In this document: piece by piece, positions 3,330 to 15,387 of the stretch
How positions within the stretch are numbered: the first letter of the stretch is position 1
How the letters are laid out: every line of letters begins with the position of its first letter
From: Parabacteroides distasonis
GTDB taxonomy: Bacteria; Bacteroidota; Bacteroidia; Bacteroidales; Tannerellaceae
DNA length: 37,999 nucleotides
Assembly: GCF_004793765.1 (NCBI RefSeq)
Contig: NZ_SRYM01000040.1
Coordinates: 1 to 37,999, forward strand
Direction of reading: 5' to 3'
Notes under the pieces: generated by a model
Told to the model about the DNA's origin: nothing
Database searches by the model: none
The model's input: only the letters and a program-made list of their open reading frames with translations
Translations under genes and position numbers: made by a program

Positions 3330-5165
3330 ATGGCTTACTTTAATTACAACCGCCGTAAATCATCCGTTGCCCAAATCGGTGACACACCCATGGGAGGTGA
3401 GAATCCTATCCGTATTCAATCCATGGCTAATGTATCAACGATGGATACGGAGGCGGCGGTAGCTCAAGCGATCCGTATGATCGAGGCGGGAGCTGAGTAT
3501 GTGCGTTTTACGGCACAGGGGGAACGGGAAGCCCGAAACTTGGGCGAGATTCGTAAACAATTGAATGAGCAAGGGTATACGACTCCTTTGGTCGCTGATA
3601 TCCATTTTAATCCTAGAGCGGCTGATGCCGCCGCCAGTGAGGTGGAAAAGGTACGTATCAATCCGGGAAACTATGTAGATAAGGTAAAGACATTCAGCCA
3701 TCTTGAATATACGGATGAGGAATATGCCGCCGAGATCGAGAAGATCCGTGAGCGGTTCGTCCCTTTCTTGAATATTTGTAAGGCACATGGCACCGCTATT
3801 CGTATCGGTGTGAATCATGGCTCGCTCTCCGATCGTATCATGAGCCGTTATGGTGATACGCCCGAGGGGATGGTAGCGAGTTGCATGGAGTTTCTTCGCA
3901 TTTGCCGGGAGGAGAATTTCCCGGATGTGGTTATTTCGATTAAGGCTTCCAATACCGTTGTCATGGTAAGGACCGTGCGGCTGTTAATTCGTACGATGGA
4001 GGCCGAGAATATGCATTACCCCTTGCACCTTGGGGTAACGGAAGCAGGTGACGGTGAGGACGGGCGTATCAAGAGCGCTGTCGGAATCGGTACGCTTCTG
4101 TGTGACGGTATCGGTGATACGATCCGGGTTTCCTTGAGTGAGGACCCCGAGGCGGAAATGCCGGTAGCGCGTAAATTGGTGGATTATATTAGGGAACGAG
4201 AAAATCATCGTCCTATCGAGGCTTCGATGGCTCCCGGTTTCGATACGGTGGCGACAAGCCGTCGTATAAGCCGTGTGGTGGAAGGTATCGGAGGTACTTT
4301 CCCGCCAGTCGTGATCTCCGATCGTAGTAGCGGGGATTTTGAGTTTGATCATTTGTCCTTGCCGGACTATATATATATAGGAAAGGAAGATCCGGATAAT
4401 TTGCCGGATAATTTCCGTTTATTGGTAGACGCTCATTTTTGGAAAGAGCGTCCGAATGCTTTTCCTTGCTTCATCGCCTCGGAGGCGGAGGAGTTAAAGG
4501 ATTACGATTGTCCGCTTAAGTTTATCCGTCTGACGTACATGGATCTTACGGAGCGTATGTTGGAGATCTTGAAAGCGGATAAGACCGTGGTAGTCTTATT
4601 GAGCACACATCATCGGAATGGGGTTGGCTCGCAACGTGCGGCTATGCATAAATTGCTGATGTCGGGTTGTGACGTGCCGGTTGTCTTGCATCGTGATTTC
4701 CGGGAGACGGATGTGGAGTTGTTGCAATTGAAATCCGCCGCCGATTTCGGTACGCTTTTGTTGGATGGTTTCGGGGATGGCTTGATGCTGCACAATGAGG
4801 GATGCGAGGCGGTTGTCTCGGATCGCTGTATGTTCGGAATCTTGCAAGCTACAAGGACCCGTATCAGTAAGACGGAATATATCTCTTGTCCGAGTTGCGG
4901 ACGTACCTTGTACAACCTGCAAACAACGATCGCCCGTATCAAGGAGGCTACTTCCCATTTAAAAGGCTTGAAGATCGGTATCATGGGCTGTATCGTGAAT
5001 GGTCCCGGCGAGATGGCCGATGCCGACTATGGTTATGTGGGTGCCGGACGTGGACAAATCAGCCTGTATAAAGGTAAGGAATGTGTTCTCAAGAATATCC
5101 CCGAGGAAGACGCTGTAGAACGTTTAGTTCAGTTAATAAAAGAGAACGGGGATTGGGTTAATTGA
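3330..5165 (+). CDS. ispG: 4-hydroxy-3-methylbut-2-enyl diphosphate synthase IspG (long form)
   Basis: IspG (GcpE) reductively converts MEcPP to HMBPP, the penultimate step of the MEP isoprenoid pathway, using a [4Fe-4S] cluster. The 611-aa protein has the N-terminal TIM barrel (IRIQSMANVSTMDT, LVADIHFNP, VRINPGN, IRIGVNHGSLS), a large insertion of roughly 240-260 residues, and the C-terminal cluster domain with CPSC (Cys520, Cys523) and MGCIVNGPGE (Cys554 and the conserved Glu). E. coli IspG is about 370 aa; the inserted form is known from Bacteroidota, Chlamydiae and plants. It starts just after an inverted repeat and is followed closely by dut. Confidence 0.97.
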   Translation: MAYFNYNRRKSSVAQIGDTPMGGENPIRIQSMANVSTMDTEAAVAQAIRMIEAGAEYVRFTAQGEREARNLGEIRKQLNEQGYTTPLVADIHFNPRAADAAASEVEKVRINPGNYVDKVKTFSHLEYTDEEYAAEIEKIRERFVPFLNICKAHGTAIRIGVNHGSLSDRIMSRYGDTPEGMVASCMEFLRICREENFPDVVISIKASNTVVMVRTVRLLIRTMEAENMHYPLHLGVTEAGDGEDGRIKSAVGIGTLLCDGIGDTIRVSLSEDPEAEMPVARKLVDYIRERENHRPIEASMAPGFDTVATSRRISRVVEGIGGTFPPVVISDRSSGDFEFDHLSLPDYIYIGKEDPDNLPDNFRLLVDAHFWKERPNAFPCFIASEAEELKDYDCPLKFIRLTYMDLTERMLEILKADKTVVVLLSTHHRNGVGSQRAAMHKLLMSGCDVPVVLHRDFRETDVELLQLKSAADFGTLLLDGFGDGLMLHNEGCEAVVSDRCMFGILQATRTRISKTEYISCPSCGRTLYNLQTTIARIKEATSHLKGLKIGIMGCIVNGPGEMADADYGYVGAGRGQISLYKGKECVLKNIPEEDAVERLVQLIKENGDWVN

Positions 5166-8231: not shown

Positions 8232-9536
8232 ATGAGGCACGTCTGGATCGTTCTATTGGCATTGTCTTTATCTACCGTGGTTTACGGTCAGAAATCCGCT
8301 GCTGTCCGTCAGTTGGAGCAGCAGCGCAAGGAGGCGTTGGCCGATATCGAGGAGACGAATAAATTATTACAAGAGACGGCCCAGACTGCTAAAACTTCCC
8401 TGAACCGTTTGAATCTACTCTCCAAACAAATTCTTTCCCGTAAGAAAGTCATCGGTTTCTTGAATCAAGAGCTGGATGAGATTGAGAAAGATATCTTGAA
8501 TATCCAAGGCCAGTTGCGCTCTTTAAAACGGGAACTGGGCGATAAGCAGACGAATTACGGTAAATCGATGCGAGGGCTTTATAAACGCCATAGCTCGCAA
8601 GATAAATTGTTGTTTATCCTATCCGCCGAGAGTTTCTCTCAATCCATGCGGCGTATGCGGTATTTGCGGGAATATGCGGATTGGCAGAAGCGGCAAGCGA
8701 ACGATATCATGGAAAAGCAGGCTGAGATCAGTAGCAAGCAAGCCGAGATGGAGAAGACCCGTGCCGAGAAGCGTACCCTTTTAGGAACTCGTCAAGAAGA
8801 GAGTAAGAAATTAGAAAGTGAGGAAGCTTCCCAGAAAGAGGAAGTTCAGCTATTGAATAAAAAGCAAAAGGATTTGAGGGCGGATCTCCAAAAGAAGCAT
8901 CGTCAAGCCGAGGCTTTGAATCGGCAGATCGAGAAACAGATTGCCGAGGAGATCGCCCGTGCCGAGGCAGAGGCCAAAGCTGCCCGTGAGCGTCGTGCCC
9001 GTGAACAAGTTACCGAGGAGGATAAGACTGTACCGGAAAGTAAGAACGAGCCGATCCGTGAGGAACGAGTGGCGGATACGAAAGGGGGTTATGCGATGAC
9101 AAAGGCGGAGAAGCAATTGTCCGATCATTTCGCGAATAACCGGGGACGCTTGCCTTATCCGGTGGCCGGAAGACATGCGGTTGTCGCTACATTCGGCGAG
9201 CAACAGCATCAGGAGTTGAAATATGTCCGTACCAGTAATAGTGGTATCGATATCCAGACCTCACCCGGAGCGGATGCCCGTGCGGTATTCAATGGAGAGG
9301 TGACGCGTGTGTTCGTGGTGCCGGGGTACAATAATTCCGTCATCGTTCGTCATGGTAACTACTTGACGGTTTATAGTAATTTGAGTCAGGTATATGTGAA
9401 AGCGGGCGACCGAGTCTCTACCCGCCAAGCGATCGGAAGGATCTATTCAGACCCGGAAGATGGTAATTCCACGATCCTCCATTTCCAATTGTGGAAGGAG
9501 AAGACGAAGTTGGATCCGCAGCCTTGGTTGGAATAA
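8232..9536 (+). CDS. envC: EnvC-type murein hydrolase activator with degenerate M23 domain
   Basis: The 434-aa protein has a signal peptide (to about residue 20, ending VVYGQ), a long coiled coil (about 20-290, rich in K/E/Q/R) and a C-terminal LytM/M23 fold. The zinc and catalytic positions are not those of an active endopeptidase: HxGxDI reads NSGIDI (Asn336, Asp340 kept), the YxHL motif reads YSNL, and HLHF reads ILHF (Ile415, His417 kept). Loss of these residues is the hallmark of EnvC-like activators, which open cell-wall amidases at division rather than cutting peptidoglycan themselves. It ends the dut-TPR-DUF4292 run. The gene symbol is by family, not orthology proof. Confidence 0.88.
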   Translation: MRHVWIVLLALSLSTVVYGQKSAAVRQLEQQRKEALADIEETNKLLQETAQTAKTSLNRLNLLSKQILSRKKVIGFLNQELDEIEKDILNIQGQLRSLKRELGDKQTNYGKSMRGLYKRHSSQDKLLFILSAESFSQSMRRMRYLREYADWQKRQANDIMEKQAEISSKQAEMEKTRAEKRTLLGTRQEESKKLESEEASQKEEVQLLNKKQKDLRADLQKKHRQAEALNRQIEKQIAEEIARAEAEAKAARERRAREQVTEEDKTVPESKNEPIREERVADTKGGYAMTKAEKQLSDHFANNRGRLPYPVAGRHAVVATFGEQQHQELKYVRTSNSGIDIQTSPGADARAVFNGEVTRVFVVPGYNNSVIVRHGNYLTVYSNLSQVYVKAGDRVSTRQAIGRIYSDPEDGNSTILHFQLWKEKTKLDPQPWLE

Positions 9537-9584
9537 CCCCTGCCGGAAGTGTTAAAATGTCGGTGAGCATTTTGAGCCTCTTAC

Positions 9585-9617
9585 GATGGGCGTCATAAGG
9601 TCGCTTGAATGCCCATC
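9585..9617. other. Inverted repeat upstream of the recombinase gene
   Basis: GATGGGC (9585-9591) pairs exactly with GCCCATC (9611-9617). Inside the loop lies CATAAGG (9594-9600), identical to the half-site of the 24-bp inverted repeats at 10593 and 10876. It could be a terminator for envC (no T-run) or a recombinase binding site. Confidence 0.4.
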
Positions 9618-9622
9618 ATGAC

Positions 9623-9648
9623 TATCTTGCAATGCCTATTGTAAGATA
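9623..9648 (+). other. Hairpin directly before the recombinase start codon
   Basis: TATCTTGCAAT (9623-9633) pairs with ATTGTAAGATA (9638-9648) across a 4-nt loop with a single G-T pair. It ends 2 bp before the ATG at 9651, so in mRNA it would cover the ribosome entry region. Confidence 0.5.
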
Positions 9649-9650
9649 TT

Positions 9651-10585
9651 ATGAGCAAAAGCAAGAGAAGACTTTTATTTTTCGCCTACGCCACCCGGCT
9701 GATCGAGGCGAGACGCCGGGCCGGGCGGGATAATACGGCCGATTTGTACCGCACGACTCGTAACCGGGTTTGTTGTTTCATGCATGGAAAAGATCTGGAC
9801 TTACGGGAGCTGACTCCCGCTTGGGTTGCCCGTTTCGCTGTTTCGCTGCGAGCCGAAGGACTGTGGCCGAACTCTGTGCGTACCTACCTGAGCAATTTGC
9901 GGGCTATCTATCACCAAGCTTGTCGGGAAGGGCTGATTTCCCGGCCTGCCGTCTCACCATTCGAGGGGCAGTTGCCCCGGAAAGAGCGGGGCAGGTCGAG
10001 GGCATTGGACGAAAAGGTGTTGATGGAGATCGCCGTCTTTCGCCTAGAGGGAACGGACTGGAGAGGTGGGTTGACGTTGGATCTGGCTCGTTTTTCGCTG
10101 TTGGCTTGTGGGATGCCTTTTGCGGATCTGGCACGTTTGACATCGGATAACATCCAAGGTGACGAGATCGTTTATCGTCGGAAGAAGACGGGGAGACTGA
10201 TTCGTATCGGTATCACCTCGGCAATACGGGGCTGATCGGTAAGTACGTTACGGAGGGTTCTCGCTATCTTTTCCCCATCCTGCCGGCCGGTCGCGACGTG
10301 GGACACGAGGAGTACAAGGCGTTGCTCCGTGCGTACAATCGCACGCTGAAGGAGATCGGCGCCTCGCTCTCTACACCGGTGCGCCTTACCTCGTACACGA
10401 TGCGCCACAGTTGGGCGACGAACGCTTATCGTAAGCACATCCCCCTCTCTGTCATCAGCCAGGCCTTGGGGCATACCTCGGAACAAACGACAAGGCATTA
10501 CCTTGCCGCTTTGGACCAATCCGAAATGAATCGTGCGAATGAATGTGTGACAGGGGAGATCGAGAGGCTCTTGGCTTTCGGATAG
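9651..10585 (+). pseudogene. Tyrosine recombinase (invertase type), frameshifted
   Basis: Residues 1-194 (9651-10235) carry an N-terminal SAM-like arm-binding domain and the start of the catalytic domain (KKTGRLIRIGI). The reading then stops at TGA 10233-10235. The rest continues in another frame from about 10232 (LIGKYV...YLFPILP...), with the Arg-II box TMRHSWAT, LGHTSEQTTRHYL and the catalytic Tyr. One extra base in the G run at 10228-10231 would join both halves into 311 residues, the usual size for Bacteroidota recombinases. The box normally containing catalytic Arg-I (ARGM) reads ACGM: Cys153 has codon TGT, one transition from CGT. Inactivation is likely, unless the shift is a sequencing error or is bypassed by ribosomal slippage. 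Confidence 0.85.
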
Positions 10586-10592
10586 GACTGAC

Positions 10593-10616
10593 CCTTATGC
10601 CGGACATAAGGGGGAA
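10593..10616. repeat. Left inverted repeat of the putative invertible element (IR-L)
   Basis: These 24 bp are the exact reverse complement of 10876-10899. The first 19 bp, CCTTATGCCGGACATAAGG, are a dyad themselves (7-bp arms around CCGGA), followed by GGGAA. That is the architecture of a tyrosine-recombinase crossover site. It begins 8 bp after the recombinase stop codon. Confidence 0.9.
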
Positions 10617-10674
10617 GAGGCCAAAACTGCTCGTTCATCCTTTCCGCACCGCTATTTCCGGAGTAAGGCATCCG

Positions 10675-10682
10675 CAAATATA
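10675..10682 (-). promoter_or_regulatory. TAnnTTTG box inside the invertible segment, pointing left
   Basis: The minus strand reads TATATTTG, a perfect -7 match, so transcription in the present orientation would run toward the recombinase gene (antisense to its 3' end) and away from the DUF4469 gene. After inversion the box would occupy about 10810-10817 on the plus strand. No -33 TTTG was found at the expected spacing. Confidence 0.55.
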
Positions 10683-10779
10683 CAGAAAAATTAATAAGAT
10701 CCCCCTCTTTTACTTAAAATTAGCCAATAGAAAATGAGAGGGCATGGAAAAGGCATGTCCTAAGTAATCTATATCCATA

Positions 10780-10812
10780 CGCTTTTTCGCCAGCCCAAGG
10801 CTCAAAAAAGCG
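10780..10812. other. Hairpin inside the invertible segment
   Basis: CGCTTTTT (10780-10787) pairs with AAAAAGCG (10805-10812), and inside it AGCC (10792-10795) pairs with GGCT (10799-10802) around CAA. It could act as a weak terminator in either direction, insulating one side of the element, but no separate T-run follows the stem. Confidence 0.4.
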
Positions 10813-10875
10813 ATTTAACTATCATTTGTCTCTTTTTAGGGCTTAACTCCGTACGATCCGTGTAATCCGTGTTCT

Positions 10876-10899
10876 TTCCCCCTTATGTCCGGCATAAGG
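10876..10899. repeat. Right inverted repeat of the putative invertible element (IR-R)
   Basis: The 24 bp are an exact reverse complement of 10593-10616; pairing breaks on both sides, so the repeat is neither longer nor part of a larger duplication. It lies 69 bp before the ATG of the DUF4469 gene. Confidence 0.9.
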
Positions 10900-10968
10900 T
10901 AACCCAGATGAACAGGTGCCGATGAAGTGAGTCATTAATCTAATATCAATTTTAAACACACAAGAAGT

Positions 10969-11739
10969 ATGGCAGGAAAAATCATTTTAAACGCTGATTT
11001 GTATGACAACGTACTAACCGAGAAATTTGGCGACTATGTAGCCAAACCCCGCATCACCGGGACTTACCGCAACACGGACGTAGCCGCCGACATCGTGGCC
11101 GAGCGCACCGAGTTCCGCCCGGAAACAATCGTAAACATCCTTACGCTGGCCGACCAGAAGAAGGTGCAGGCCGTGGCCAACGGCAAGAGCCTCGTGGACG
11201 GCTTCGGCCAGTTCCTACTCAATCTCTCGGGATCGTTCGAGGGCGAGGCCCCCGTGTTCAACCCGGAGATACACGTCCTGGGCGTTACCTTCACCCCCGG
11301 CAAGCCGTTGCAGGATGCCTTGAAGAACATCACCTTCAACCTGAACAAGGCCACGACAGGCCCGGTCATCAACCAAGTGACCGACGTGCGTACCCAAAGC
11401 GTGAACCTACAGATCACCCCGGGCAAGAACGTCATCATTAACGGAGCGAACCTCTTGATAAAGGGCGACAACCCGGCCAACGGCATCTTCTTCACCAAGG
11501 ACGAGGAGGGGGCCACGACGCAAAAGGTGGAGTTCTTCTCCCGCAGCACCACGTCGGAGCAGATCGTGGAAGTACCCGAGGGATTGGCCGACGGGCAGTA
11601 CAAGATGAGCATCACCACGCAGGCCGGCGCTAGCTACAGCCTATTGAAAGAGCCTCGTACCTACGTATTCCCGATCCTTCTCACCGTGGGCAAGTTACCC
11701 GAGGGCGACGGCGACAGCGAGAGCCCGGACGAGATCTGA
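10969..11739 (+). CDS. HU-like DNA-binding domain / DUF4469 protein
   Basis: The 256-aa protein has an N-terminal HU/IHF-like domain (about residues 1-115; the TVRNILT-type segment ETIVNILTLADQKKVQAV and a region resembling FGQFLLNLSG) and a C-terminal Ig-like domain of the DUF4469 type (about 130-245, with NVIINGANLLIKGDNPANGIFF). I see no signal peptide. The tail is acidic (EGDGDSESPDEI). The function is unknown. The gene is strongly GC-biased in codon choice compared with its neighbours. It is the first gene after the invertible element and has no other TAnnTTTG box before it. A TGA ends it exactly where a 12-bp periodic array begins. Confidence 0.8.
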   Translation: MAGKIILNADLYDNVLTEKFGDYVAKPRITGTYRNTDVAADIVAERTEFRPETIVNILTLADQKKVQAVANGKSLVDGFGQFLLNLSGSFEGEAPVFNPEIHVLGVTFTPGKPLQDALKNITFNLNKATTGPVINQVTDVRTQSVNLQITPGKNVIINGANLLIKGDNPANGIFFTKDEEGATTQKVEFFSRSTTSEQIVEVPEGLADGQYKMSITTQAGASYSLLKEPRTYVFPILLTVGKLPEGDGDSESPDEI

Positions 11740-11740
11740 T

Positions 11741-11872
11741 CCGGTCTCCCCATCGAAGCCTCGTTCGATACCTATGCCGGTCTCCCGAGCGGTACCTATG
11801 TCGATCGAGGCTTCGACATAGGTATCGATCGGGGCATCGACCAGCCACTCGATCCCCCGATCGACACCATAC
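11741..11872. repeat. 12-bp periodic array (about 11 degenerate units)
   Basis: Cutting the sequence every 12 bp from 11741 gives 11 units, seven of them beginning TCGA (11753, 11765, 11801, 11813, 11825, 11837, 11849, 11861 region) and two beginning CCGGTCTCCC (11741, 11777). TACCTATG recurs at 11769 and 11793. TACCTATGTCGA (11793-11804) also pairs with TCGACATAGGTA (11813-11824), giving a strong hairpin. The array fills the gap between the DUF4469 stop and the protease leader. Confidence 0.75.
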
Positions 11873-11918
11873 CCATGAATAAATGTTAAAATCATATTCA
11901 CTTTTAAATTCACGACTT

Positions 11919-14900
11919 ATGAGAAAGCAATTTTTACTAACGCTGATCCTCTGCCTCACGTCCTCGATGACGTGGGCGGAACGGATCGATGTGGCCACGG
12001 CCTGCAAGGTAGCGGAGAGCGTGGTGCGACGAGAGGGTGCGACCAGTGGCCTGCGCTCGGCTGGCGAGTTGCCATTGGTGTACGCCGCCGCCCCTGGGCA
12101 GAGCGGCTCGGCCCTGCGTAGCGGCGCGATGGAAGGCGCGGCGGACTACTTCGTGTTCAACTTCCCCGGCGGGAAAGGTTTCGCCATCGTGGCGGGCGAC
12201 GACCGCGTGCGCCCCGTATTGGGCTACTCCGACGAGGGCAGCTTCGACCCGGACAACCTTCCGGAGAACCTCCGCGGCTGGCTGGCAGGCTATCGGGAAC
12301 AAATAGATTGGGCCGTAGATCAAGGTACGGAAGTTTCCCCCTCATTGGCAGCAGAATGGAACGCATATCTGAATAGTAGCCCTTCTTTGCGGTCGGCAGG
12401 TGGTGTCTTGCTCGAAACAGCTACTTGGGGGCAGGACGATCCTTACAACAGAAAAACGCCTTTGATCGGGAACAAACACGTGCCAGTGGGATGTGTCCCT
12501 ACAGCAATGGGAATTCTCATGAGATATCACAGATTTCCGGAGCAAGCGAATGCCGCTCATAGAGTGGCATCTTATTATAACCAATCTGTTTCCTACGGTA
12601 AATATGATTGGGGAAGTATGCCGGATAAGTTGAGCAATTCCTCCTCGAATAAACAAATTGATGCTGTATCGGAATTACTTTGGCATGCTGGAGCAAACGC
12701 AGAGGCTAAATATACGGAAGTAGAAACCAGAACTTCTATGGCCGATGCGTTAAGCACGTTGAGAGATGTTTTCGGCTATAGCAAACAGATGAGATATCTA
12801 CAGAAGATCTATAGCGATTATTCATGGGAAGAATGGGAACAACTTATGCGCGACGAGCTGGACGACGGCCGTCCGATCCTCTATGCTTCCGAGACAGAAG
12901 AATGCGAAACGCCACTATCTGGAATACCACATGCTTTCGTTTGCGATGGCTATGATTCGTATGGACGCTATCATTTCAACTGGGGATGGGACGGGAAATG
13001 CAATGGCTTTTATATCCTTTCCGCCTTAGACCCGACGAATAATGAGACTTGGGGCGGCTTCAATCAGGATCATAATATGATCGTGAATATTAAGCCCAAC
13101 AAGGACAGTGAGAACCAAGTATCGCTACAAGTATGCGAATCTGTGCAAGGAGACGGCTTTAGAATGAAACAAAGTATAGGGATGTACGAGGATATCGTGA
13201 CCTTCCCTATCGTGAATGCGGGCAATATACCTTTTAACGGGTATTTGACTTATGTGCTGACAGACCATGACGGGAATATCAAAGAAATTGGAGATTATGA
13301 TATTGAGATATCTGACTTGGTTCCTGACAATGATTGGTACAGAGCCGAGTTCATCGTAAAGATGTCAGAAAACGACTACGCCATGGCCGCCTATTCCACG
13401 GACAGGAAGAACTGGTCGGTGATAAAGGGAACTTCATCCGAGATTGCGGATAAAATGAACCTGGAAGGTCCTGTATCCAACCAGAAGGTTTACTATGCTT
13501 GGGAATTGGATTGTCGCAATGAGGGATTGACCTTGGAAGCTCCGGAGAAATTGGAATACGACAAACCGGCAGAATTTGTCTTGAAACCGAACAAAGGATA
13601 TGTGTTACCCAAAGCGGATGATATACTTATTCAAATAGCAGGAGGAACTGTTTTAGTCAATAATCCGGGATATGGAAGTAGAGCTACGGTCACTTACGAC
13701 GAGAAAACAGGCAAGTTGGCTATTTCCTGTGTCTACGGTCATGTGCATATCGTGGCTGAAGGAGTACAAGCAGACGATGACGTTGATAAATATAAAGATA
13801 CCTCCTTGGAATCGCTTGGTTATACTTTGGATGGCAAATCGAACGTGATCGATTTGCGGTATGGATGGGAATCTTATACCGTGTTATTACCATCAGATAA
13901 GGAGGCCCTGCCCAAAATAACATTGAATGCGGTAGCTAAGCAGCTGGGAGCAAAAGTGGAAATAACAAATCCGGTGTGGATCGAAAATACGGCCGTGGGT
14001 AAGGTGAAGGTCACTGCGTTGAATGGTATTTCGTGTACGACTTATACGGTCGCGTTTAAACGCTCCCAGTCTGGCGAGGAGCCGGATATACCGAGTGATG
14101 AGGCGATGGATGTTACGACAAGCGCAAATATCACAAATGTGAATGTAAAAGCCATCAATATGGGAAATACCCAAAGAAGGATAACTCCGACATTTACTCA
14201 GGTCCATACGGGAGAATTAAATATTTTGGCAGGAACGGAGGTCGGAATCATATTATCCGGGGATGACAATCAATTAGGAAAAATAGTTAATAACGGTTCC
14301 TTGCAGATATTCTGCCGATATAAGGAAGGCTCTGCCTCTTGTACTTCGTTTGTGAACAATGGATCAGTATTTGACATTACAGGTTCGATTACTAAAGTAG
14401 AAGGCCATGCCGCTTTGGAAATCATGCCCATTACTGTTTCTACGGATGGCGGGATGACTGTACTTGACGGTCGTGCGCTGGGAAATAATGTTAAATTGTC
14501 TTGGTATAAGGGTGATGATGACCAAGACGCATGGACAATGATAGAAGCAGGTAAATCCAACGGTTTAAGGGCAACGGGAGTCAATAGCAAGTTGAGTGTC
14601 TCAGAATCTGGTGTCTATAGATTGGAAGCGGAAGTAGTAGATGGAGAATATTATGCTAACTTATCTTCATTTGTGGAAGTTGATATTGACAATAAAGAAT
14701 CTTACACGGTAACATTACCAGTGGTAGAAGGAGTCGTGATAACTCCTGAAAATTCTACCACTGTAAAAGCGGGTGGAGATTTTGCTTTTACTATCCAGAT
14801 AAAAGAAGGCTTTAGCATGGCGGATATGGTTGTAAAAGCCAATGGAATCGAATTGCCGGTGGATATAGATGGCCGTTGTGTAATTAAAAATGTACAGAGT

Positions 14901-15161
14901 AATGTGGTTGTCACGGTTGTTGGTGTTGTCGAAAAAGATCCAACGAGCATTGATTCAGTCGTTATTGATAAAATAAGCGTCTGGGCCGCCAACGGTCGAC
15001 TGTTTATCCAGACACCGGTAGCCGACACGGCCTATATCATTGCTTTTGACGGCCGTGTGTACAAGACCCTGTCCTTGTCTGCCGGCGAGTACTCGGAGCA
15101 GATGCCGCAAGGTTCCTATATCATCCATGTAGGTAAGCGATCCTATAAACTGAACTTCTAA
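11919..15161 (+). CDS. Secreted C10-family (streptopain-like) cysteine protease
   Basis: The 1080-aa protein has a signal peptide (to about residue 20, ending MTWA), a Spi/propeptide region (about 20-140, AGDDRVRPVLGYSDEGSF), and a C10 catalytic domain with nucleophile Cys192 in VPVGCVPTAMG and His338 in IPHAFVCDGYD, followed by FNWGWDG. Both residues are intact. After about residue 400 come beta-rich repeats and a 70-residue C-terminal module (ISVWAANGRLFIQTP...YIIHVGKRSYKLNF) like Bacteroidota sorting or DUF6383-type ends, so export to the cell surface or medium is likely. The frame opens at 11883, but ATG 11919 gives a proper signal peptide. GC-rich codons stop abruptly near 12300. Confidence 0.9.
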   Translation: MRKQFLLTLILCLTSSMTWAERIDVATACKVAESVVRREGATSGLRSAGELPLVYAAAPGQSGSALRSGAMEGAADYFVFNFPGGKGFAIVAGDDRVRPVLGYSDEGSFDPDNLPENLRGWLAGYREQIDWAVDQGTEVSPSLAAEWNAYLNSSPSLRSAGGVLLETATWGQDDPYNRKTPLIGNKHVPVGCVPTAMGILMRYHRFPEQANAAHRVASYYNQSVSYGKYDWGSMPDKLSNSSSNKQIDAVSELLWHAGANAEAKYTEVETRTSMADALSTLRDVFGYSKQMRYLQKIYSDYSWEEWEQLMRDELDDGRPILYASETEECETPLSGIPHAFVCDGYDSYGRYHFNWGWDGKCNGFYILSALDPTNNETWGGFNQDHNMIVNIKPNKDSENQVSLQVCESVQGDGFRMKQSIGMYEDIVTFPIVNAGNIPFNGYLTYVLTDHDGNIKEIGDYDIEISDLVPDNDWYRAEFIVKMSENDYAMAAYSTDRKNWSVIKGTSSEIADKMNLEGPVSNQKVYYAWELDCRNEGLTLEAPEKLEYDKPAEFVLKPNKGYVLPKADDILIQIAGGTVLVNNPGYGSRATVTYDEKTGKLAISCVYGHVHIVAEGVQADDDVDKYKDTSLESLGYTLDGKSNVIDLRYGWESYTVLLPSDKEALPKITLNAVAKQLGAKVEITNPVWIENTAVGKVKVTALNGISCTTYTVAFKRSQSGEEPDIPSDEAMDVTTSANITNVNVKAINMGNTQRRITPTFTQVHTGELNILAGTEVGIILSGDDNQLGKIVNNGSLQIFCRYKEGSASCTSFVNNGSVFDITGSITKVEGHAALEIMPITVSTDGGMTVLDGRALGNNVKLSWYKGDDDQDAWTMIEAGKSNGLRATGVNSKLSVSESGVYRLEAEVVDGEYYANLSSFVEVDIDNKESYTVTLPVVEGVVITPENSTTVKAGGDFAFTIQIKEGFSMADMVVKANGIELPVDIDGRCVIKNVQSNVVVTVVGVVEKDPTSIDSVVIDKISVWAANGRLFIQTPVADTAYIIAFDGRVYKTLSLSAGEYSEQMPQGSYIIHVGKRSYKLNF

Positions 15162-15176
15162 ATGCTAAACACAAAA

Positions 15177-15213
15177 CGAGGGTGTCGCCACTCATATCTC
15201 AGGCGCACCCTCG
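15177..15213. other. Hairpin downstream of the protease gene
   Basis: GAGGGTG-T-CGCC pairs with GGCG-CACCCTC (15178-15212) with one bulged T and a loop of about 12 nt; CGAGGGTG (15177-15184) is the exact complement of 15206-15213. It lies 16 bp after the protease stop. No T-run follows. Confidence 0.6.
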
Positions 15214-15215
15214 AA

Positions 15216-15271
15216 CCAAAAGGAGGTGTGGCGAACACCGGTATATACCGGCTTGCCACACCTCCTTTTGG
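15216..15271. terminator. Large near-perfect palindrome between convergent genes
   Basis: A 17-bp perfect stem (15216-15232 with 15255-15271) encloses a second palindrome CCGGTATATACCGG (15238-15251). It sits between the + strand protease and the - strand phosphoesterase, so it is likely a bidirectional transcription stop, although it has T4 inside the stem rather than a trailing T-run. The stem sequence (GGAGGTGTGGC) resembles the neighbouring hairpin (GAGGGTGTCGCC), suggesting duplication. Confidence 0.6.
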
Positions 15272-15323
15272 TACATACTCCAATAGTCTGATTAACAGAG
15301 ATAAATATATGGATTATTCTAAG

Positions 15324-15367
15324 AACATAGGCAAAAGTAGCCTAATATCGTTACAAAACATAGGCAA
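15324..15367. repeat. Short direct repeat AACATAGGCAA
   Basis: The 11-bp word occurs at 15324-15334 and 15357-15367, 33 bp apart, both followed by an AGTAG-like sequence. No gene is evident here. Confidence 0.4.
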
Positions 15368-15387
15368 GTAGGGAAGACTTCACTCGT

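Follow-up and report, generated by a model that had tools for sequence, protein, structure and literature searches.

The intergenic element at positions 10593 to 10899 of the window, i.e., the whole 37,999-nt stretch of Parabacteroides distasonis DNA analysed here, is very probably a promoter switch operated by site-specific DNA inversion. We propose that the upstream tyrosine recombinase would recombine two inverted 19-bp sites, each built of 7-bp arms around an asymmetric 5-bp spacer, and that this recombination would flip the ~270-bp segment between the sites. The segment would hold one promoter near its recombinase-side end, which in the present orientation would fire toward the 3′ end of the recombinase gene (OFF); once flipped, the promoter would transcribe a gene for an HU-like DUF4469 protein and then, through a hairpin-rich gap, the gene for a secreted C10 protease (ON). 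We infer that the recombinase family acts on this 19-bp site, that the segment promoter works, and that the DUF4469 and C10 genes are co-transcribed. The recombinase frame is broken in the assembly, so the window copy may be locked OFF unless the break is an assembly error, and present-day switching in the window genome is uncertain. An initial annotation had already read the element as an invertible promoter, a reading that is now supported by the repeats, the conserved site, the promoter position and opposite orientations between related genomes; what it had missed is that the promoter box, at 10675-10682 on the minus strand, presently points away from the operon.

Paired sites behind a family of tyrosine recombinases

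The two arms of the element, 10593-10616 and 10876-10899, form a perfect inverted repeat with 24 of 24 positions complementary and 259 nt between them (10617-10875), confirming the earlier description of 24-bp perfect inverted repeats enclosing 259 non-coding bp. When the window was simulated 100 times with a first-order Markov model, the longest perfect inverted repeat (gap 30-1000) measured 16 bp. The last stop of the recombinase frame (10585) and the left arm have 7 nt intervening, and 69 nt lie between the right arm and the ATG of the DUF4469 gene (10969), the latter as given earlier. Each arm contains a 19-bp site of 7-5-7 design with the consensus CCTTAT[T/G]-N5-[A/C]ATAAGG, the left copy being CCTTATG-CCGGA-CATAAGG at 10593-10611 on the plus strand and the right copy lying at 10881-10899 on the minus strand. 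In the window genome, a Parabacteroides draft of 4.2 Mb in 177 contigs, no further match to the 19-bp site was found with up to 2 mismatches allowed. A DNA search with 10540-11000 among 59 relatives returned only the window's own genome and a 52-bp match in genome G010; window 9500-11000 had no match in the phage collection, and the exact sites of the window and of G016 (which we take to be P. distasonis ATCC 8503) were absent from the viral contigs.

Sites of this kind recur next to related recombinases. Of 26 loci read, 23 have an inverted CCTTAT-N7-ATAAGG pair directly behind a homologous tyrosine recombinase, and the other three (L129, L130 and L131) have a single site only. Among the 23 loci with a pair, 21 have the left copy starting 1-13 nt past the stop of the recombinase; in the remaining two, L076 and L128, it is overlapped by the recombinase frame. 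A pair adjoins the recombinase in 25 of 29 loci when the core is relaxed to CTTA-N9-TAAG, the 29 being those examined out of 30 returned. When close strict-core pairs were collected with equality not imposed, 25 of 25 were inverted with identical middle bases, and they comprised 11 different site sequences; in the 26-locus set and in the 37-segment set described below, pairs were defined by equal sites, so that matching middles there arise by construction. The middle bases vary between loci and are equal within a pair; this equality is a requirement of strand exchange between two partner sites, and such sharing would be hard to account for in another way. Summed over 38 same-genus genomes, the site pattern gave 109 matches versus 34 for the reversed control, with an uneven excess (19 versus 3 in P. 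gordonii, G018; 3 versus 3 in the window genome). The pattern is present in 27 genomes and the control in 21; presence alone hardly discriminates.

The window recombinase, previously called a tyrosine recombinase gene, retains that assignment by homology. Its N-terminal part (9651-10235, plus strand), comprising a SAM-like domain and the first half of the catalytic domain, matches PF13102 (2.3e-16), and its C-terminal catalytic part (10232-10585, plus strand) matches PF00589 (3.6e-11) and possesses the R-H-x-W and Y motifs. It is not one open frame, an interruption that the initial annotation had missed: the N-terminal frame ends early, and the half that runs to 10585 sits in a different frame. 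Both halves align cleanly to intact relatives, with no other visible damage. The homologous recombinase is intact at the DUF4469 switches of G016, G025, G018, G021 and G023, and an intact same-family recombinase with the similar site CTTATT-N5-AATAAG is encoded elsewhere in the window genome (G000:C93). At the position where tyrosine recombinases carry their first catalytic arginine, the motif is replaced by CG[MIL][PTA]F in 21 of 21 aligned relatives, with the later R, H and Y positions retained; the idea that a missing first Arg marks a dead window enzyme was rejected, since all 21 aligned relatives lack this Arg too. Other interrupted same-family recombinases are seen beside their sites at L130 2826-3824 (G023:C55) and L127 5663-6968 (G004:C77), which suggests that such switches decay repeatedly.

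Segment orientation and promoter direction

Comparing segment orientation in related genomes, a check proposed with the initial annotation, reveals differences between G016 and G025, between the window and G001, and in two further orthologous pairs; all of this evidence for flipping consists of comparisons between species, with G001 lacking the repeats. The homologous DUF4469 switches in G016, where the switch lies at C1:3783920-3784213, and in G025 have their 256-bp segments in opposite orientations, with a local score of 273 flipped versus 24 unflipped. The flipped alignment contains 207 identities, 48 mismatches and 2 gaps (207/257), and the alignment forced unflipped contains 140, 96 and 40, respectively. 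In G001, the same locus as the window's comprises the M23 peptidase gene upstream and a DUF4469 gene of 90% identity, with no recombinase of the window's family and no such repeats. An alignment of the G001 intergenic DNA with the window segment is obtained only in the flipped orientation (102 versus 22; best of 300 shuffles, 40), a resemblance that the DNA search among 59 relatives had missed and that direct comparison recovered with an E value of 1.9e-9 in a small set. The TATATTTG box in G001 points at the DUF4469 gene and is reversed in the window; relative to this DUF4469-facing promoter, the window is therefore read as OFF. The two further pairs are the G000:C93 switch of the window genome against its G016 counterpart (493 flipped versus 59; flanks 92-95% identical and in the same order) and G019 against G026, with 115-bp segments (123 versus 20). 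The inner segments of the window and G016 have no significant similarity either way (22 versus 15; shuffle maximum 29), so that box position, not similarity, links those two. Mixed orientations might be suspected from a contig break just past the G025 switch, an idea dropped because the break is not at the repeat. L180 1662-3189 (G000:C93) is a second same-family switch in the window genome, in the ON orientation with doubled repeats, before an operon that by eye is OmpA/fimbria-like.

The Bacteroidetes -7 consensus is TAnnTTTG, and the window segment contains a putative outward-facing promoter with a TATATTTG box at a conserved position. This box (10675-10682, minus strand) points at the recombinase and is OFF for DUF4469; relatives have the same box type in the same place. 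A -7 box is located 50-100 bp from one segment end in 26 of 37 segments, compared with 2.7 on average and at most 8 in 500 simulations, where the 37 segments are mutually related and the 26 cases are not independent events. No box is found in the expected band in the other 11. This set omits seven loci without a pair (L129, L130, L131, L145, L148, L157 and L160), and locus orientation within it was assigned by hand from the recombinase strand. Of the 26 boxes, 24 are directed toward the recombinase (OFF) and 2 toward the operon (G025 and G000:C93), an OFF excess in assemblies. Feedback of DUF4469 on the switch was considered as its cause and is weakened, because the excess is seen as well among the remaining switches, of which many precede fimbria-like operons. 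The -33 region of the window promoter is weak, with a clear TTTG/TTG absent. After inversion, the window -7 box would sit ~159 bp before the DUF4469 ATG.

The downstream genes and the surrounding cassette

The proposed first gene of the switched unit (10969-11739, plus strand) encodes a 256-aa protein combining an HU-like DNA-binding domain with a DUF4469 Ig-like domain (PF14848, 5.5e-28; PF14734, 1.8e-25) and related to PDB 4fmr (8.4e-17). The gene that follows (11919-15161, plus strand) encodes a 1080-aa Spi-inhibitor/C10 cysteine peptidase (PF01640, 1.4e-52; PF13734, 2.3e-24) with a start that looks signal-peptide-like by eye and a C-terminal module common to the cargo of other DUF4469 switches. 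Strong nested hairpins occupy 11753-11868 (plus strand) between the two genes (z -8.5); they have no T-run and are not a classical terminator, and a scan of 10500-12000 for T-run terminators found none.

This switch precedes a DUF4469 gene in six genomes, namely the window genome, G016, G018, G021, G023 and G025, the last having it on two contigs with overlapping ends. Repeat type and recombinase are kept together before DUF4469 in these six genomes, an outcome that favours the switch where the initial annotation had named missing repeat conservation as a refutation; yet 21 of 25 DUF4469 loci are without the pair. DUF4469 itself is found at 39 places in 19 of the 38 genomes. The 25 loci are those, out of 30 of these places, with no less than 1.4 kb of upstream sequence: the site pair is present in 4, another repeat type (~232 bp apart) in 2 and neither in 19; a member of this last group, as well as a short locus, shows different small repeats or has too little sequence for a judgement. 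DUF4469 genes may thus have this switch, but most do without it. Copies of the other type of inverted repeat, TAGTCCATGAAGAACTATGT-like or TTAGTTCGTTCAGAACTA and spaced by 232-240 bp, stand ahead of DUF4469 in P. gordonii (G018) and G004, at L079 4975-5246, L080 13281-13550 and L082 4235-4510; a same-family recombinase is absent from L079 and L080 and lies ~14 kb off in L082.

Each switched DUF4469 gene is followed by a gene for a large protein with a signal-like start (by eye), which is a C10 peptidase in the window, a leucine-rich-repeat protein in G016 and an unknown protein in the others. About 150 C-terminal residues of this cargo are related among the window, G016, G018, G021 and G023, and the G025 cargo protein ends in similar-looking sequence by eye. 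DUF6383 is recognised in the cargo above the cut-off only in G021 and G023 and below it in G016 and G018, with no match in the window protein.

The whole cassette, consisting of recombinase, invertible segment, DUF4469 gene and C10 protease gene, extends over 9645-15382 (ends approximate) and is present in the window and absent from G016. Window positions 9644 and 15383 match G016 positions 3843541 and 3843546, where 4 bases lie between and the whole block is missing, and three long matches of the window flanks to G016 are 91, 94 and 96% identical. G025 is also without the cassette, its matches stopping at 9649 and restarting at 15344, and G001 has at this site DUF4469 and a 51% identical protease without the switch. 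It is possible, albeit doubtful, that Parabacteroides carries modular phase-variable cassettes, each uniting an HU-like/DUF4469 gene, a tyrosine recombinase and the 19-bp site pair belonging to it, and a secreted cargo that can be swapped (a C10 protease, a leucine-rich-repeat protein or unknown proteins) and whose forms have a C-terminal module in common. Such cassettes would be gained and lost as units and would decay to fixed ON, as in G001, or locked OFF, as in the window, with the HU-like protein constantly accompanying the cargo and, in some cases, the switch. This reading is held at lower probability because most DUF4469 genes are without this switch. Two strong palindromes seen by eye right after the C10 protease gene (15177-15271) are perhaps the terminator of the cassette. 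Near the empty cassette site in G025, a different ~1-kb insert (L184 ~4080-5110, G025:C122) is flanked by an M23-gene-end repeat; by eye, it contains what is presumably a RhuM-type gene.

Alternative readings and known switches

We give an even chance to the possibility that the window holds a decayed, locked switch, in which the sites and promoter would be relics, the recombinase a pseudogene, and the unit permanently OFF unless another recombinase acts; this would qualify, not exclude, the inversion switch. The frame interruption between two otherwise well-aligned recombinase halves points in this direction, as does decay elsewhere: G001 lacks recombinase and repeats with its promoter held ON, at G023:C55 the recombinase is interrupted and one site only is present, and at G004:C77 a perfect pair adjoins an interrupted recombinase. 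Weighing against a lock, the arms remain 24/24 identical, the remaining recombinase aligns without further visible damage, an error in the draft assembly (177 contigs) is possible, and the intact G000:C93 recombinase might act in trans, given its similar site CTTATT-N5-AATAAG.

The absence of the whole 5.7-kb cassette from G016 and G025 would also fit a recombinase that serves as the integrase of the cassette, with attachment-related repeats rather than a promoter switch. We consider this highly improbable, as the repeats are inside the cassette and not at its ends, the recombinase-plus-pair layout is also found ahead of fimbria-like and other operons, and the inverted parts are the segments between repeats, not cassettes. 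Still less credible is a MITE or insertion-sequence remnant that landed between the genes: a non-coding segment bounded by perfect terminal inverted repeats has that appearance, but the genome has no further copy of the site, the recombinase-adjacent placement recurs at many loci with differing inner sequences, inner segments are seen flipped in place, and a target-site duplication is not visible by eye in the flanks. Equally remote is the reading of the repeats as two terminator hairpins, serving the recombinase and antisense transcription, respectively. Each arm does contain a 7-nt stem in a short palindrome, and the left arm lies 7 nt past the recombinase stop; however, a terminator has no need of pairs that agree in their middle bases and differ from locus to locus, flipping of the segment is not expected of it, and the 10500-12000 scan is devoid of T-run terminators. 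The inversion switch remains the preferred reading.

Tyrosine-recombinase invertible promoters were reportedly described in Bacteroides fragilis by Weinacht et al. in 2004 and by others. Like the window, these switches are said to place a tyrosine recombinase on an invertible promoter of surface-protein genes; their site is said to differ, and the window target is an HU/DUF4469 protein with a secreted C10 peptidase. Parabacteroides switches of fimbria-like/OmpA-like operons, such as G000:C93 and G016:C1:3448k, have the recombinase and site families of the window and a similar promoter position, whereas downstream they have DUF3575 and fimbrillin-like operons (G000:C93 and G016 genes by eye), not DUF4469. 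As described in the accessible part of PMC12118408, P. distasonis capsule switches consist of a 314-345 bp promoter region with palindromic inverted repeats and an integrase gene ahead. They share with the window the genus and an inverted-repeat-flanked promoter region behind an integrase gene, and differ in the repeat (GCTACTYRGNRAGTAGC, not CCTTATT-N5-AATAAGG) and in their capsule operons with a NusG-type first gene (PMC12118408, same part). According to the same portion of that paper, S-layer switches of Bacteroides thetaiotaomicron (BT1927 type) have very low expression, in ~1 in 1,000 cells. As in the window, an integrase-linked inverted repeat stands before a surface protein unit, and the low expression resembles the OFF excess among assemblies here; the repeat CCGTTACCTABVRAGTAAC and the S-layer/OmpA products differ (PMC12118408, in part).

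A master recombinase acting at distant sites is described in the accessible part of PMC5903667, so that an adjacent intact recombinase is usual, not defining, for invertons. Excerpts of two surveys show that a P. distasonis genome was included in one (PMC10939037) and that the other recognised 146 groups of gut invertons, the motifs of some being unpublished (PMC11892184); the window site may be among these 146 groups. The words “invertible” and “recombinase” are absent from the accessible part of PMC9409006. Literature searches, covering sources in part, did not find DUF4469 or the four site strings, and the inversion-survey tables (PMC5903667 and PMC10939037) may list the switch or its G016 homologue. 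The initial annotation had suggested that the target may be new, and an HU-like DUF4469 plus secreted C10 protease target indeed appeared in none of these searches; the kind of switch is known, and its target is apparently undescribed.

With this switch, the surface functions under phase variation in gut Bacteroidota would come to include an HU/DUF4469 gene and a secreted cysteine protease. A recombinase family with such an easily recognised site makes switches findable from sequence alone, and the OFF excess among assemblies is a testable population statement. Together, the flipped, possibly locked OFF, fixed ON and empty-site forms provide a clean comparative case for the origin and decay of a switch.
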